Source: a virus
Reading direction: 5' to 3' (one strand)
DNA length: 37,788 nucleotides
IMG/VR virus record: IMGVR_UViG_3300045253_000027
Location: 1-37,788 of that record
In this document: one piece after another, positions 2-8,159 of the stretch
How the letters are laid out: every line of letters begins with the position of its first letter
Position numbering within the stretch: position 1 is the stretch's first letter
Made by a program: the position numbers and the translations under genes
The notes under the pieces: model-generated
Database searches by the model: none
The model's input: only the letters and a program-made list of their open reading frames with translations
What the model was told of the DNA's origin: nothing

Positions 2-175
2 CAGATCGTCCAGAAGTGTCTCAACGACCTGAGCACGCTGGAGAAGCACACAGCTGCCAACGCCCGAGCGATCAAGGCCGTCATCGACGCACTGATCGAC
101 GCGGGCATCGTGGAGGACTTTCGGCCCGAGGCTGAGACCGAGTCCGACATCCCCGAGTCCGACCGGCCCGAGTAG
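2..175 (+). CDS. C-terminal end of an unrecognised phage protein (partial)
   Basis: The frame is open from the window edge and stops at TAG 173-175, giving the last 57 residues of a protein whose start lies outside the window. The visible part looks helical (DLSTLEKHTAANARAIKAV), then has an acidic Glu/Asp/Pro-rich tail ending in SDRPE. Its stop shares a base with the GTG start of the next gene, so the two are probably translationally coupled and belong to the same rightward operon. I do not recognise a family. Confidence 0.6.
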   Translation, partial: QIVQKCLNDLSTLEKHTAANARAIKAVIDALIDAGIVEDFRPEAETESDIPESDRPE

Positions 176-411
176 TGCTGGCCGCTGCGTTCGGCGTCAT
201 CGGCGTGCTCGTAACGCTGGCCTGGCTGGAGTTCCTGGCCTGGCGTGAGCGCCGAGCGCAGCGCCGCCGTGACTGCGAGAACCGGGGCCATCAGTTCGAG
301 ACCCCGCAGCTGCACAACTTCGCCATCAACCCCGACTACACGGGGTACACCCGCCGCTGCCGCCACTGTGGTGTGCAGCAGCACGAGAAACGAGAGGGAG
401 GCTGGAAGTGA
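175..411 (+). CDS. Small membrane-anchored protein with Cys/His-rich tail
   Basis: 78 residues from a GTG start that overlaps the preceding TAG by one base. Residues about 3-22 are a hydrophobic segment (GVIGVLVTLAWLEFLAW), followed at once by a basic stretch (RERRAQRRR), so an N-out/C-in single-pass membrane protein is likely. The soluble tail has one early Cys (DCENRGH) and a CRHC pair, a spacing that could bind zinc. Its stop overlaps the RNase H start by 4 nt (GTGA). Function unknown; the position at the head of replication genes does not say more. Confidence 0.55.
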   Translation: MLAAAFGVIGVLVTLAWLEFLAWRERRAQRRRDCENRGHQFETPQLHNFAINPDYTGYTRRCRHCGVQQHEKREGGWK

Positions 412-806
412 CCATACTCCGCTTTGACGGCGGCGCCCGGCCGACCAACCCCGGCCCGGCCGCCTGCGCCTGGACGCTCGACATGCCCGGCTTCCACCGA
501 GAGGGCTCGCGTCGCCTGGGTCGCATGACGAACAACGAGGCCGAGTACATGGGCCTCATCAACGGGCTCCAGGAGGCCATGCTCTCCGGCCTGCACGACA
601 TCGAGGTGCGCTCCGACTCCAAGCTGGTCATCAACCAGATGACTGACCTGTGGAAGGTGCGCTCCAACCGGCTCTCCGAGTTCAGGGCCCTCGCCCTCCA
701 GCACGTTCGGTGGATGCGACAGCACGGCGGTGACATCATCTTCGTGTGGGTGCCCCGCGAGGAAAACAGTGAATGTGACGCTGCCTGCACGGCGCTGCTC
801 ACATGA
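408..806 (+). CDS. RNase H type 1
   Basis: 132 residues with the RNase HI core: FDGGARPTNPGPAA (catalytic Asp7), NNEAEYMGLINGL (Glu46), VRSDSKLVINQM (Asp70) and ENSECDAACTAL (Asp124). The family cleaves RNA in RNA:DNA hybrids with two metal ions; in phages it would remove lagging-strand primers. It precedes DNA polymerase genes, which fits primer removal before gap filling. The length matches stand-alone RNase HI. The start is GTG 408 within a GTGA overlap with the upstream gene. All four acidic residues are present, so it should be active. Confidence 0.88.
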   Translation: MTILRFDGGARPTNPGPAACAWTLDMPGFHREGSRRLGRMTNNEAEYMGLINGLQEAMLSGLHDIEVRSDSKLVINQMTDLWKVRSNRLSEFRALALQHVRWMRQHGGDIIFVWVPREENSECDAACTALLT

Positions 807-1315
807 GCTACCGCACTGACGTCGAGGACATGGCCTCTCACCTGGCCGCACACGACGCCGCCCTCAAGCGCATGTATTGGAACTCGAAGGCCGAGCCTTC
901 CTGCCCATCGTGTCGCAAGTACGAGAGCTTCTGCACCTGCTCCACGATGGTGCTCGACTGGGGCGGGCGGCAGTTGAAGGACGCACCGTGGAACTTCGAC
1001 CTCTACCCCTGCGGGTGCGACCCGTACAACGGCGAGGACGAGGGACGCTACGAGTGCGTCGAATGCCACCCGCTGCGTGTCTACCTAGGGCTACGCGACC
1101 GCAAGGCCGCCAAGCTCAAGGGACGCCCGTCCACGCTGTTCCTGGAGCACCAGGAGTACATCGACTCCTCCCGGTTCTCCCTGCTCGGGCCGATGGGTAT
1201 GATGTCACGGATACTCAAGACGATCTACGCGCCCGCGATCAAGGAGCAGCTGAACCAGTCCCTCATCCTGAGCACCGACCTGGCCCACCCGACCACTTTC
1301 ACGGTGGCGCGGTGA
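803..1315 (+). CDS. Cys-rich protein with DNA polymerase pre-motif-A segment
   Basis: 170 residues, ATG start overlapping the RNase H stop by 4 nt. Residues 34-90 hold several Cys pairs (CPSC, CTC, CGC, CVEC) that could bind zinc. The last ~45 residues (ILKTIYAPAIKEQ...LAHPTTFTVAR) resemble what lies just before motif A in family A polymerases: a thumb/palm helix, then a His-x-(S/T)-F...T-x-R stretch. The next gene starts with NIQTIP, the expected next block, in the -1 frame, overlapping by 4 nt (GTGA). So this may be the N-terminal half of a two-part polymerase. I see no canonical slippery heptamer at the junction. The CPSC/CTC block is encoded by repeat R1 (906-949), so a zinc role is doubtful. 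Confidence 0.65.
   Translation: MSYRTDVEDMASHLAAHDAALKRMYWNSKAEPSCPSCRKYESFCTCSTMVLDWGGRQLKDAPWNFDLYPCGCDPYNGEDEGRYECVECHPLRVYLGLRDRKAAKLKGRPSTLFLEHQEYIDSSRFSLLGPMGMMSRILKTIYAPAIKEQLNQSLILSTDLAHPTTFTVAR
906..949. repeat. 44-bp inverted repeat R1
   Basis: Arms CATCGTGTCGCAAGT (906-920) and ACCTGCTCCACGATG (935-949), 14-base spacer. It is wholly inside the coding sequence at 803-1315 and encodes its CPSC...CTC block. It matches the other six copies in arm length, spacer length and conserved bases (CAT, G5, G7, CA at 11-12). Confidence 0.75.
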
Positions 1316-2142
1316 ACATCCAGACCATCCCGCGCAAGGACAAGGTGGTAAAGGCCGCCTTCATCCCGAAGCTGGATGGCTTCCTGTTGGCGGACTACCC
1401 TAACATCGAGTTGAAGCTCCTGGCCTTCTACCTCCAGATGATCGGCGACCCCACGATGGCGGAACTGTTCCGTCAGGGCGCCGACCTCCACACGGCCACC
1501 GCCTGCGGTGTGCTCGGGCTCACCTTGGACTGGGTCAAGTACCCGGACTACGGGATCAGCGACGAGTCGCGGCAGGTGGGCAAGGTGCTGAACTTCTCCA
1601 TCGTCTATGGCGGCGGGATGCCGACCATCATGGAGCAGCTGCACATTGGGCCGAAGGAAGCCCTGGAGATCCTCACCAACTACCACGCCACCTGGCCCAA
1701 GATGGGCTGGGCGACGAAGCGTAAGCCCGCAGCTGAGGGAACGCTCCTCTGGGCCATCGACTCCCAGATCAAGGAGCGGGCGCTCACCGCCCCTGACCAC
1801 CGGGGCTACATCACGACGCTGTATGGGCGGCACCTGCACCCGAAGGCCATGCACGCCGCGCTCAACAACCTCTGTCAGGGGTGCGCGGCCGACCTAATGA
1901 AATGGGCGATGATCCGCGTCCACCAGGGCCTCAAGGAGGGCGGGTTCGAGTCGCATATCGTGAACATGGTGCATGACGAGTTGAAGCTCGACGTGCGCCG
2001 GGACGAGGTTCCGGCTCTCAACATCCTGCTGCCCCAGTGGATGACCGACCCGCGCATCGAGGCGGTCGTCCCGATCCTGCCCGAGTGCGAGATCAGCTGG
2101 ACTACCTGGGCAGACAAAGTCAAGTACAAGGAGGCAGCATGA
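1312..2142 (+). CDS. DNA polymerase I family, palm and fingers part
   Basis: 276 residues from GTG 1312, carrying the catalytic core of family A DNA polymerases. It opens with NIQTIPR; motif A is ADYPNIELK (Asp28), motif B is RQVGKVLNFSIVYG (Arg87, Lys91, Tyr99), TLYGR is at 169-173, and motif C is MVHDELKL (His221, Asp222, Glu223). All nucleotidyl-transfer residues are present. There is no exonuclease domain and no thumb in this ORF; a separate exonuclease lies at 6475-7125. The start overlaps the previous stop by 4 nt. The same frame stays open upstream to about 877, but that part is Arg/Pro-rich shadow translation. Whether the active enzyme is assembled from two chains or made by frameshifting cannot be told from sequence. 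Confidence 0.9.
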   Translation: MNIQTIPRKDKVVKAAFIPKLDGFLLADYPNIELKLLAFYLQMIGDPTMAELFRQGADLHTATACGVLGLTLDWVKYPDYGISDESRQVGKVLNFSIVYGGGMPTIMEQLHIGPKEALEILTNYHATWPKMGWATKRKPAAEGTLLWAIDSQIKERALTAPDHRGYITTLYGRHLHPKAMHAALNNLCQGCAADLMKWAMIRVHQGLKEGGFESHIVNMVHDELKLDVRRDEVPALNILLPQWMTDPRIEAVVPILPECEISWTTWADKVKYKEAA

Positions 2143-2546: not shown

Positions 2547-3151
2547 CCTGGATGCAGACCTATTCGGGGCGGCAGTTCTTTCCGTTCGCCCCGGTGCTCC
2601 AGGACATCCACATCGTGGACATCGCCCATCACCTGTCGTTGCAGACGAGGTACAACGGCGCTTGCACCGCGTTCTACTCCGTGGCGCAGCACTCCGTCTT
2701 GGTGTCCCAGGTGTGCAAGCCTGAGGACGCCCTGTGGGGCCTGCTACACGACGGCTCCGAGTTCATCTTCGGTGACATGCCCCGCCCGATCAAGCACTCC
2801 GGCCTGCTGGAGGAGTACCGATGCTACGAGAAGGCGCTACAGGCGCTCATCTGCAAGCGGTACAACCTCGACCCGCAGGAGCCTGAGTCCGTCAAGTGGG
2901 CGGACGGCGCGTTGCTGTCCACCGAGAAGCGTGACCTCATGCGAGGCGGCATGCTGGGACAGCCGGACAAGAACTGGCTGCACGGTGCTCTCCAGGTCTC
3001 GGCCCTGAGCCCCAAGATCATCCCGTGGGACTCGCGGGACGCCGAGTACGAGTTCATGGCTCGGTACAAGGAGTTGACGACCAAGGCGGCCCCGTTTACG
3101 GGCACGCCATACACCGAAGATCCCGAAGATGCGGAGGATGGAGGTTGGTAG
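2507..3151 (+). CDS. HD-domain phosphohydrolase (YfbR-like)
   Basis: 214 residues from GTG 2507 (GTGA overlap). The HD signature is clear: VDIAHHLSLQTRYNG, YSVAQHSVLVSQ (His62), LLHDGSEFIFGD (His81-Asp82) and WADGALL (Asp133), matching the metal ligands of YfbR-type 5'-deoxynucleotidases. These remove phosphate from dNMPs; in phages such enzymes adjust nucleotide pools. Only part of the pattern is seen, so other HD phosphatases are possible. The C-terminus is acidic (EDPEDAEDGGW). The start codon lies inside the left arm of repeat R2 (2503-2546), so binding there, or a hairpin in the mRNA, could affect its translation. Confidence 0.82.
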   Translation: MTQVDNPPYLNLDAWMQTYSGRQFFPFAPVLQDIHIVDIAHHLSLQTRYNGACTAFYSVAQHSVLVSQVCKPEDALWGLLHDGSEFIFGDMPRPIKHSGLLEEYRCYEKALQALICKRYNLDPQEPESVKWADGALLSTEKRDLMRGGMLGQPDKNWLHGALQVSALSPKIIPWDSRDAEYEFMARYKELTTKAAPFTGTPYTEDPEDAEDGGW

Positions 3152-3152
3152 C

Positions 3153-3497
3153 ATGTCTGTGATCGCGCTCGACCTCGACGGCACCATCGCTCGGCCCAAG
3201 TGGCCTGGCATCGGCGAGCCCTACCCGCACGCGGTCGCTGGCATCAAGGCCTTGCAGGCCGAGGGTCACTCCGTCTACATCTACACCACCCGCTGCTGGG
3301 GTGAGGGCACCGACGCCTTCCTCCAGCGCAACCGGATCCACTCCTGGCTGGACGAGGTTGGCCTGGGTGGGCTTCGGGTTGTGGCGAAATCGCCATACGA
3401 CATCATCGTGGACGACCGGGCCCTTCGGCACCCGCCGAGGGAGCACGCCTGGAACCACACCCCCGCCCGCATCCTCGCCCAGTTAGGCAAGCTGTGA
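3153..3497 (+). CDS. HAD-superfamily phosphatase/nucleotidase
   Basis: 114 residues. The chosen ATG 3153 has GGAGG 8 nt upstream and puts the HAD motif at the N-terminus (IALDLDGTIARP, Asp7 nucleophile and Asp9). Motif II is YIYTTR, and SPYDIIVDDRA supplies the Lys/Asp-Asp end of the fold. It is a minimal HAD core without a cap, as in small phage polynucleotide- or nucleotide-phosphatases. It sits between the HD hydrolase and the primase, so a role in nucleotide or end-phosphate processing is likely but inferred. The penultimate region uses a TTA leucine codon (3483-3485). Its stop overlaps the primase start by 4 nt. Confidence 0.82.
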   Translation: MSVIALDLDGTIARPKWPGIGEPYPHAVAGIKALQAEGHSVYIYTTRCWGEGTDAFLQRNRIHSWLDEVGLGGLRVVAKSPYDIIVDDRALRHPPREHAWNHTPARILAQLGKL

Positions 3498-5305: not shown

Positions 5306-5624
5306 GACCCGGACGGCGCAACACCGCCGTCTGCTCAACGAGTATCGACCGATCTACCCAGCCCTCCTCAAGTATCAGGGCGGCGGCTGTGCCACTTGCG
5401 GCAGGCCCCCCAGTGAGACTCGACGGCTGGATCTCGACCACGACCACAAGATGATGGTCGTCCGAGGGTTGCTCTGTGTCCGGTGCAACCGTGCGCTGCC
5501 CGACTGGCTGACGTCAGACCTGCTCCGCACGATGGCTGACTACCTGGACAATCCTCCGCTGCCTGCCATGGTGGCGCACAAGAGCAAGCCCACTTACTTG
5601 AACCACGATGGAGGTACAGCATGA
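5289..5624 (+). CDS. Recombination endonuclease VII
   Basis: 111 residues from ATG 5289; an in-frame ATG at 5265 would add eight residues (MAARSCGW) that look like read-through of the upstream gene. It contains the T4 endonuclease VII signature: zinc ligands CATC (34-37) and CVRC (63-66) around LDLDHDHKMMVVRGLLC, the His-Asp-His catalytic beta-beta-alpha metal core. The family resolves Holliday junctions and branched DNA, clearing replication products before packaging. It is about the size of the nuclease core, so the T4-type dimerisation tail is short or missing. Its last 19 codons overlap repeat R3 (5567-5610), which encodes the C-terminal YLNHDGG. The stop overlaps the next ATG. Confidence 0.88.
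   Translation: MAKKRETRTAQHRRLLNEYRPIYPALLKYQGGGCATCGRPPSETRRLDLDHDHKMMVVRGLLCVRCNRALPDWLTSDLLRTMADYLDNPPLPAMVAHKSKPTYLNHDGGTA
5567..5610. repeat. 44-bp inverted repeat R3
   Basis: Arms CATGGTGGCGCACAA (5567-5581) and ACTTGAACCACGATG (5596-5610), 14-base spacer. It lies in the 3' end of the endonuclease VII gene; its right edge abuts the GGAGGT binding site of the SSB-like gene. The inner end of the left arm is the most diverged of the family. Confidence 0.75.
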
Positions 5625-6474: not shown

Positions 6475-7125
6475 GTGGATGTCGCCTTCAAGGGCGAGCC
6501 GCTCAAGATCCTCGACTTCGACATCGAGTGCCGCCCGCTCTCGTGGTACGGCGGCGACTGGGTGACGAAGGAGGTCACGGCCATCGCCTGGGCCTGGGTC
6601 AACGACTCCAAGCCCAAGGTCACGTCGATCATCCTCGGCGACCCGTTCCTTGTAGAGGACATGGGCGAGGGTCTAGGCGTGTACCGTCACACGACAGTCC
6701 GCGACATCCTGGAGGCCTTCGTACCTGTGTACGACGAGGCCGACATGGTCACCGGCCACTTCATCCGTGGCTTCGACCTGCCCGTGCTCAACGGAGCGCT
6801 GTTCGAGTTGGAGATGCCCCTCCTGAGCAGCAAGCTCTCGCACGACACGAAGGGTGATCTCAAGAAGTTCTCCGGACTGAGCAAGTCGCAGGAGAACCTC
6901 GGAGCCACGCTGGGCCTCGACCACCCCAAGGTGTCGATGAACCAGGACAAGTGGCGCCGGGTCAACCGCGGCGAGGCGGACGCCATCCGCGAGGTGAAGG
7001 AGCGCGTCGAAGGTGACGTCCTCCAGCACATCGAGATGCGCCGTGCCCTGCTCGACCGAGGGATGCTCGGCTACCCCCGCGTGTGGAACTCAACTCCCAC
7101 TCGCTCGCCCAAGTACGTCCCCTGA
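6475..7125 (+). CDS. DEDD-family 3'-5' exonuclease (stand-alone proofreading part)
   Basis: 216 residues, GTG 6475 directly after the preceding TAA, with an AAGGGG-type binding site. The exonuclease fold is visible: LDFDIECRPLSWYGGD (Asp16, Glu18; ExoI), HFIRGFDLPVLNG (Asp101; ExoII) and VEGDVLQHIEMR (Asp181; ExoIII). The usual Tyr or His a few residues before the last Asp is not obvious (Arg177 is at the Tyr position), so its class and activity are less certain. It probably gives proofreading to the polymerase at 803-2142, which has none; that pairing is inferred. Residues about 134-165 (SGLSKSQENLGATLGL) match the linker seen in phage polymerase exonuclease domains. Confidence 0.8.
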   Translation: MDVAFKGEPLKILDFDIECRPLSWYGGDWVTKEVTAIAWAWVNDSKPKVTSIILGDPFLVEDMGEGLGVYRHTTVRDILEAFVPVYDEADMVTGHFIRGFDLPVLNGALFELEMPLLSSKLSHDTKGDLKKFSGLSKSQENLGATLGLDHPKVSMNQDKWRRVNRGEADAIREVKERVEGDVLQHIEMRRALLDRGMLGYPRVWNSTPTRSPKYVP

Positions 7126-7354: not shown

Positions 7355-7533
7355 ACACCGACAACGCAGACACCATGCCCGTCACGGACGCCGTGTACGG
7401 GAAGCCGCCCAAGCGCAAGGAGTCGCCAGAACGCGAGCGTCCGGCCGAGCGGCCCCTGTACCGGATCCTGCCGCGGGATACCGTGGACACACTAAACGGT
7501 ATGGTGAAAACCAACCGGAGGAGGAAGCCATGA
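7345..7533 (+). CDS. Unknown small basic protein
   Basis: 62 residues from GTG 7345, overlapping the previous gene by 10 nt and the RNA ligase start by 4 nt. Strongly basic and probably disordered (KPPKRKESPERERPAERPLYR ... KTNRRRKP). No motif. It may bind nucleic acid by charge alone; no function is assigned. Confidence 0.5.
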   Translation: MRLNTDNADTMPVTDAVYGKPPKRKESPERERPAERPLYRILPRDTVDTLNGMVKTNRRRKP

Positions 7534-8159
7534 GGTACTACGACAACCGGCCGCCCTTCACCGGGTGGGGCAAGATCCAGCGGTTCGGCAACATGACGAT
7601 CACCGAGAAGATCGACGGCACGAACGCGGCCGTGGTCTGCACCGAGGAGGGCTACGTCTATGCCCAGTCGCGCAAGCGGTACGTGGAGCGCGGCGACGAC
7701 AACTTCGGCTTCGGTGCCTGGGTCGGCGACCACAAGGAGCAGCTGTTCGAGGAGCTTGGCCCCGGCGTCCACTTCGGTGAGTGGTGGGGTCACGGCATCC
7801 AGCGCGGGTACGGCATCGGGGAGCGTCGCTTCTCACTGTTCAACACCGGCCGGTGGACATCCGTCTACAACGACATCGTCACCAAGGAGCAGTACACCCC
7901 GTGGGATGCCATCGACTCGCTGGTCGGCGAGGACGGCTACACGTTCGAGGCCCTGCACCGATGCGTTGAAAGCGACATCTGCTACGTGGTGCCGGTGCTC
8001 CAGCAGTACGCCCTCGACACCTCGCTGATCCGCATAATGCACGCTCGCCTCAAGCGCATGGGCTCGGTGGCCGCCCCGGAGTTCCCCAACCCCGAGGGCA
8101 TCGTTGTGTACCACCAAGGCCAGCTGCTCAAGATGAACGACGCCAAGGAGGAGGGATGA
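7530..8159 (+). CDS. RNA ligase, minimal adenylyltransferase domain
   Basis: 209 residues; ATG 7530 follows GGAGGAAG. It shows the nucleotidyltransferase motifs of the T4 Rnl2-like family: motif I EKIDGTN with Lys27 as the AMP-accepting residue, a motif III region HFGEWWGHGIQRGYG...RFSLFNTGRW, motif IV EGIVVY (189-194) and motif V LLKMN (199-203). Such enzymes seal nicks in RNA, often as tRNA or RNA repair against host anticodon nucleases. It lacks the C-terminal domain of full-length Rnl2, so it is a core-only ligase. No 5'-kinase gene is visible beside it, though the HAD protein at 3153 could process ends (speculative). Confidence 0.82.
   Translation: MRYYDNRPPFTGWGKIQRFGNMTITEKIDGTNAAVVCTEEGYVYAQSRKRYVERGDDNFGFGAWVGDHKEQLFEELGPGVHFGEWWGHGIQRGYGIGERRFSLFNTGRWTSVYNDIVTKEQYTPWDAIDSLVGEDGYTFEALHRCVESDICYVVPVLQQYALDTSLIRIMHARLKRMGSVAAPEFPNPEGIVVYHQGQLLKMNDAKEEG

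Follow-up and report, generated by a model that had tools for sequence, protein, structure and literature searches.

The virus record analysed here, a 37,788-base IMG/VR sequence that we refer to in its whole length as the window, carries a gene for the palm and fingers of a family A DNA polymerase, which raises the question of where the rest of the enzyme is encoded. A first-pass annotation had read the locus as a polymerase in three pieces, made up of this gene (PolA-C), the 170-residue protein encoded directly upstream and a distant 3'-5' exonuclease gene. We found that the split is real and conserved, and that the earlier annotation had named the wrong partner gene. With a probability of roughly 86%, PolA-C supplies one of the two chains that make up a family A replicative polymerase occurring across one clade of tailed phages; its partner chain, PolA-N, is most likely encoded off the contig.

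PolA-C is a stand-alone palm-and-fingers gene

The PolA-C product matches DNA_pol_A (PF00476; E 1.5e-43, 149.6 bits against a cut-off of 34.3; Pfam) and phrog_17 (E 5.7e-48; PHROGs). The Pfam match covers profile positions 127-380/381, starting at the first residues of the protein, NIQTIP, and positions 1-126, the thumb and TGR strand, are missing from the chain. In the window, a PF00476 match (127-380) is confined to this gene. The first-pass view of a family A polymerase in pieces, broken right before NIQTIP, was right. That annotation also placed the break just before motif A; the polymerase is indeed broken in this region, but the actual break lies about 26 residues upstream of motif A. 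Residue 2 of PolA-C aligns to residue 352 in the 605-residue chain of the Klenow fragment, and the AlphaFold2 model (mean pLDDT 70) has Klenow, Bst and Taq as its top Foldseek matches, with E-values to 5e-14. Motif A, the O-helix and motif C are all intact (Table 1). Junctions of the same stop/start kind as that at the PolA-C start are found at five further sites of the window operon (803-806, 2139-2142, 2507-2510, 3494-3497 and 5621-5624), in agreement with the first-pass description of GTGA as a common junction here, and the relatives show the same type (ATGA/GTGA). Compared with GenBank phages at the DNA level, the window has a sole match, of 129 bases and elsewhere.

Table 1. Positions of the features discussed, in window coordinates
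Feature	Position	Strand	Remarks
Gene end cut by contig edge	2-175	+	possible counterpart of the L007 95-aa gene; very weak match (blastp E 0.063)
78-aa protein	175-411	+	possible counterpart of the L007 113-aa slot protein; weak match (blastp E 0.009), position conserved
RNase H gene	408-806	+	RVT_3 1.8e-15, RNase_H 4.9e-7 (Pfam); phrog_531 3.4e-13
170-aa cysteine-rich orphan	803-1315	+	matches neither thumb nor N-half
PolA-C	1312-2142	+	palm and fingers of family A DNA polymerase; stand-alone gene; GTG start; 276 aa; begins (M)NIQTIPRKDK
GTGA junction	1312-1315	+	PolA-C start codon overlaps TGA stop of preceding gene; translational coupling
Motif A, DYPNIELK	1393-1416	+	D28, Y29, E33 invariant across 16 PolA-C
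O-helix motif, RQVGKVLNFSIVYGG	1570-1614	+	R87, K91, N94, F95, Y99, G100 invariant across 16 PolA-C
Motif C, HDE	1972-1980	+	H221, D222, E223 invariant across 16 PolA-C
Separate 3'-5' exonuclease	6475-7125	+	DNA_pol_B_exo1 4.6e-5; phrog_403 3.6e-13

The same split occurs across one clade of viral relatives

Either window protein alone, used as a query against viral contigs, returned no close relatives. Relatives were instead collected by an alignment-based IMG/VR search, which returned a tight cluster sharing 39-63% identity with the window gene; the next matches were at about 31%. Further searches, with the N-half as query and with deeper C-half queries, added members, all of them split. The same split is found in 41 distinct IMG/VR relatives that are 35-63% identical to the window PolA-C (38 distinct N/C pairs plus L197, L199 and L203), and in all of these the halves meet at fixed residues, the end of the N-half and the start of the C-half being constant. 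Uninterrupted close relatives, which the first-pass annotation had named as a sign of sequence error, were looked for and none turned up: at about 35% identity or above, all relatives carry the split at this one position.

The upstream gene of the relatives ends in ...TGRMSSG.. (C-terminal end ..FRQHGTRTGRMSSG.., then stop), and the downstream gene starts with xNVQNIPR. In almost all group members a start codon stands directly before NVQNIPR, as it does before NIQTIPR in the window gene. The N-half upstream of each complete member is 300-390 aa long and consists of a 3'-5' exonuclease (DTETTG, NAKFD, KDAE) and a thumb. DNA_pol_A positions 2-124 and 113/127-380 fall in separate ORFs in 16 of 16 relatives, and the window has the second only (Pfam).

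More distant polymerases are unbroken, with a single ORF on every contig that spans both parts. A profile scan likewise places the split loci in one high-scoring group and single-ORF polymerases among the lower-scoring loci. In a tree of 96 C-halves, the 39 split rows included all group as a single clade (SH-aLRT 98), with one state change, and the window is sister to L007 (SH-aLRT 99). These sequences indicate that an ancestral single gene was cut once, giving the split a single origin, and no rejoined, single-ORF polymerase was seen among the clade members. GenBank phages contain no clade member, with best identities of about 30-33%; the exact pattern NIQTIPRK has six matches, the sole polymerase among them (L091) being distant and intact. 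Bacterial and archaeal genomes scanned with the PolA-C alignment gave one weak match, in a Bdellovibrio MAG, and no host or prophage was found.

Both halves are under purifying selection, with dN/dS of about 0.05-0.19 in the N-half and up to 0.14 in the C-half for well-measured pairs. Active-site residues are kept in both, namely the exonuclease residues and TGR in the N-half and motif A, the O-helix and motif C in the C-half. N-half and C-half distances correlate (r=0.92; 0 of 2000 permutations), a value to which near-copies and shared history contribute.

The N-half of the closest relative and the left end of the window

The closest relative, L007, is 63% identical and encodes a PolA-N of 387 aa (exonuclease and thumb) 733 bases upstream of its PolA-C, with the gene order N-half, 95-aa gene, 113-aa gene, C-half. 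Its genome (G001; 48,099 bases) runs collinear with the window in reverse orientation, starting at 1312 and continuing almost to the right end, and about 13 kb of it, including the N-half, has no counterpart, the window starting there. A gene for the thumb and TGR strand is present in 16 of 16 relatives searched and absent from the window, which is about 13 kb short relative to G001; no N-half was found within the 37,788 bases. Judging from the relatives, PolA-N of this virus most likely lies beyond the left end of the contig.

The genes between the halves vary

The gap between the halves ranges from an overlap to about 2 kb across the relatives. Five relatives have bare junctions, in which the halves overlap by 1-4 bases: four of them (L033, L038, L039 and L040) have a 4-base ATGA/GTGA overlap, and L199 has a 1-base overlap, TGATG, with a different junction phase. 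The commonest gene in the slot is a family 2 glycosyltransferase (Pfam 2.7e-20), present in many relatives (for example L014, 2237-3004) and often joined by 4-base stop/start overlaps on both ends. An aspartate/ornithine carbamoyltransferase-family gene lies exactly between the halves in L104 (5041-5970; Pfam 8.6e-44). The slots of L103 and L112 encode SLOG-family YspA-like proteins, slightly below the Pfam cut-off, with similar ORFs in L106 and L115, and other slots hold small acidic ORFs or several genes. An HNH-like ORF in the L024 slot and a LAGLIDADG-like ORF in the L115 slot were recognised by reading the sequence, and neither matches Pfam; in most members the slot holds other cargo, or none, rather than nuclease-like ORFs. 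The C-half DNA of L038, which has no insert, is 97% identical to that of L034, which has the glycosyltransferase, and GCATGA bounds the insert on both sides. Cargo genes can therefore enter or leave while both coding halves stay intact, and the gap is a permissive slot with changing contents.

Neither the 170-aa protein nor the separate exonuclease is taken as a polymerase piece

Upstream of PolA-C the window has, in order, the cut gene, the 78-aa gene, the RNase H gene and the 170-aa gene (Table 1). The 170-aa ORF, its ATG start and the next ORF in the -1 frame, overlapping by GTGA, are present as first described. Its position directly upstream of PolA-C, with a 4-base overlap, would fit the thumb or pre-motif-A part of a three-piece enzyme together with the distant exonuclease, and a forced alignment can place the end of the protein over the pre-NLQNIP region. 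The segment AHPTTFTVAR had been read as resembling the pre-motif-A region, but at E<=1 the protein matches neither DNA_pol_A nor any PHROG (Pfam, PHROGs); it lacks a TGR motif, and its hhalign probability against the true N-half profile is 0.3%. Of the two products that the first-pass annotation had proposed for profile searching, only the downstream one returned a polymerase, DNA_pol_A. No tblastn match at E<=1 was found in GenBank phages, nor a homologue in any fetched relative locus or in viral contigs, and the AlphaFold2 model is uninformative (pLDDT 37). The N-half of every relative is instead the exonuclease-thumb protein, which shares nothing with the 170-aa protein, and the slot of the relatives holds unrelated genes. 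Because it has no similarity to the N-halves and no homologue in the fetched loci, the 170-aa protein is not taken as a polymerase piece. A forced MAFFT alignment of it onto thumbs had looked plausible and was dropped after the true N-halves were found.

The separate 3'-5' exonuclease is present where the first-pass annotation placed it, but its role as a third polymerase piece is contradicted by the closest relative. G001 encodes a 57% identical homologue and also carries PolA-N with its own exonuclease, and the window exonuclease is for this reason an additional enzyme and does not supply the exonuclease domain that PolA-C lacks. We thus consider the three-piece enzyme very unlikely: judged by sequence, neither protein appears to be a piece of the polymerase, a reading to be taken with caution because the 37,788 bases contain no N-half. 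The 170-aa gene is most likely cargo in the slot between PolA-N and PolA-C, and the RNase H gene is probably cargo in the same slot.

Two separately translated chains are the preferred reading

A self-splicing intron or a split intein could rejoin the halves, a possibility that we rate as similarly slim. Introns favour the polA gene in phages (PMC11878797), and HNH-like and LAGLIDADG-like ORFs, recognised by reading and lacking Pfam matches, occur in the slots of L024 and L115. However, the window and 11 loci gave no Rfam intron at the gathering threshold, and three junctions gave none at E<=5; inserts have stop/start overlaps on both edges, five relatives are split without any insert, and no intein sequence is visible on the half ends.

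Programmed -1 frameshifting at GTGA, which would produce one fused polymerase, is less probable still. The -1 frames and 4-base overlap are seen in the window and in four of the bare-junction relatives, but no slippery heptamer occurs in the junction sequences of the window or the relatives, as the first-pass annotation had noted for the window. Most relatives have one to several genes between the halves, and L199 has the other phase. Together, the inserts, the two phases of the junction and the missing slippery sites exclude fusion by frameshifting for the clade, and the two-chain enzyme, which the first-pass annotation had rated as likely as frameshifting, is favoured. Least credible is that the sequence is wrong, through an error of sequencing or of assembly, or that a frameshift mutation arose recently in this one contig: a one-base change at CGGTGA would fuse both frames locally, but the break point is common to 41 distinct relatives from many samples. 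Since all split polymerases group in a single clade (SH-aLRT 98), error is excluded.

Two chains are thus favoured over frameshifting and splicing because of the changing cargo and the lack of a detectable intron. The cut of the ancestral gene would fall in the loop between TGRxSS and NxQNIP, a position on Klenow that we take to be about Arg668 to Asn675. Residues of the loop between the TGR strand and NLQNIP contact the primer-template. Because the break falls in this loop in the Klenow alignment, both chains would line the DNA. PolA-N carries the thumb and the TGRxSSG strand together with the 3'-5' exonuclease. The chains would be translated separately, with PolA-C coupled through stop/start overlaps (ATGA, GTGA, TGATG) in the adjacent forms, and would presumably join without a covalent bond; PolA-N would contribute the thumb and the TGR arginine, and PolA-C the catalytic palm and fingers. 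Post-translational assembly of two chains is the simplest account, and we infer both assembly and activity. A broader reading, which we offer as doubtful, is that the split is more than a harmless scar and has been retained as a design. The replicase would then be an obligate family A enzyme of two chains, with the thumb, proofreading and primer-grip arginine on one gene and the catalytic core on the other, and the junction of the two genes would serve as a permanent site for cargo, at which glycosyltransferase, carbamoyltransferase, SLOG-family, RNase H or nuclease genes are exchanged in step with translation of the polymerase.

Relation to known split replication enzymes

T4-like genes-in-pieces include gp43A/43B of Aeromonas phages 25 and 44RR, nrdA/mobE of Aeh1 and T4 gene 39/60 (PMC2988022). 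As in the present clade, a phage replication enzyme is encoded by two genes with other DNA between them, and the split gp43A/43B of Aeromonas phage 25 co-purify with polymerase activity, while the split NrdA of Aeh1 is functional (PMC2988022). Here too one ancestral gene has become two ORFs at a fixed site and is unbroken outside the clade. In contrast, the T4-like cases concern a family B polymerase or other enzymes in few phages, whereas the present one concerns family A, with another fold and a single clade-wide break point, and its cargo is mostly non-nuclease. The split gp43A/43B, together with split NrdA, is the best precedent for assembly and activity here.

A split family A polymerase has been published for MEP401/MEP402 and relatives (OM43 phages), for which the authors suspected an intron (PMC10580990). 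It resembles the present one in separating the exonuclease and N-part from the C-part with a small ORF between (PMC10580990). However, that break follows NLQNFDGEIKTLFLSRYGE, right before motif A and about 20 residues downstream of the present break, in another phage group; breaks of that type come after NLQN...LFLSRYGE, whereas the present one lies between TGRxSSG and NxQNIP. The polA genes of SPO1, Bastille, phiNIT1 and other Bacillus phages are split by group I introns and are likewise annotated in pieces, but those pieces are spliced into one mRNA (PMC11878797); the present clade has no intron signal and has stop/start overlaps at its junctions. In group 2.2 jumbo phages the DNA polymerase III alpha module is split into two predicted proteins, a similar division of the replicase core, but of family C, with another fold and distant genes (PMC7824862). 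Mycobacterium phage Discoknowium and Streptomyces phages BRock and Success encode single-chain PolA enzymes that rank with the nearest cultured relatives of PolA-C, at identities up to about 32%. These enzymes have the same domain order and motifs, in a single uninterrupted ORF of about 600-690 aa.

A literature search of open-licence papers found no description of the present split. Genes-in-pieces phage enzymes are already known, and we regard the present split as a novel form of them, in family A, with a clade-wide fixed break and a cargo slot; split phage replicases so far comprise a few family B cases and one differently placed family A case. The clade would offer a natural test of a Klenow-type enzyme working as two chains and a site of phage cargo exchange inside a formerly single essential gene. 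It is also a warning for polA-based viral community surveys, in which the C-half will look like a truncated gene.

Irregular copies in the clade and other window genes

Three PolA-C copies are broken or misassembled. L007 has a 5-base insertion with TAG inside motif A (3090-3105) and L115 a 4-base insertion with TGA at the same motif (about 6548-6565), each giving an immediate stop; these may be homing endonuclease scars, assembly errors or chance, and motif A is intact in all other members. L203 has one extra base right after the PolA-C start (about 4000), probably a homopolymer error. In three members the codon before NxQNIP is ATT or ATC rather than ATG, GTG or TTG (L024 at 3001, L104 at 5969 and L197 at about 4001), a possible non-canonical start; in L024 and L104 this ATT overlaps the stop of the preceding gene (ATTAA).

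In the window, an RNA ligase-like protein is encoded in the replication operon (7530-8159; phrog_548, 2.4e-27). The gene at 2139-2510 encodes a DUF6378 protein (2.9e-21), and the PHROGs label of its relatives, phosphofructokinase, looks doubtful.
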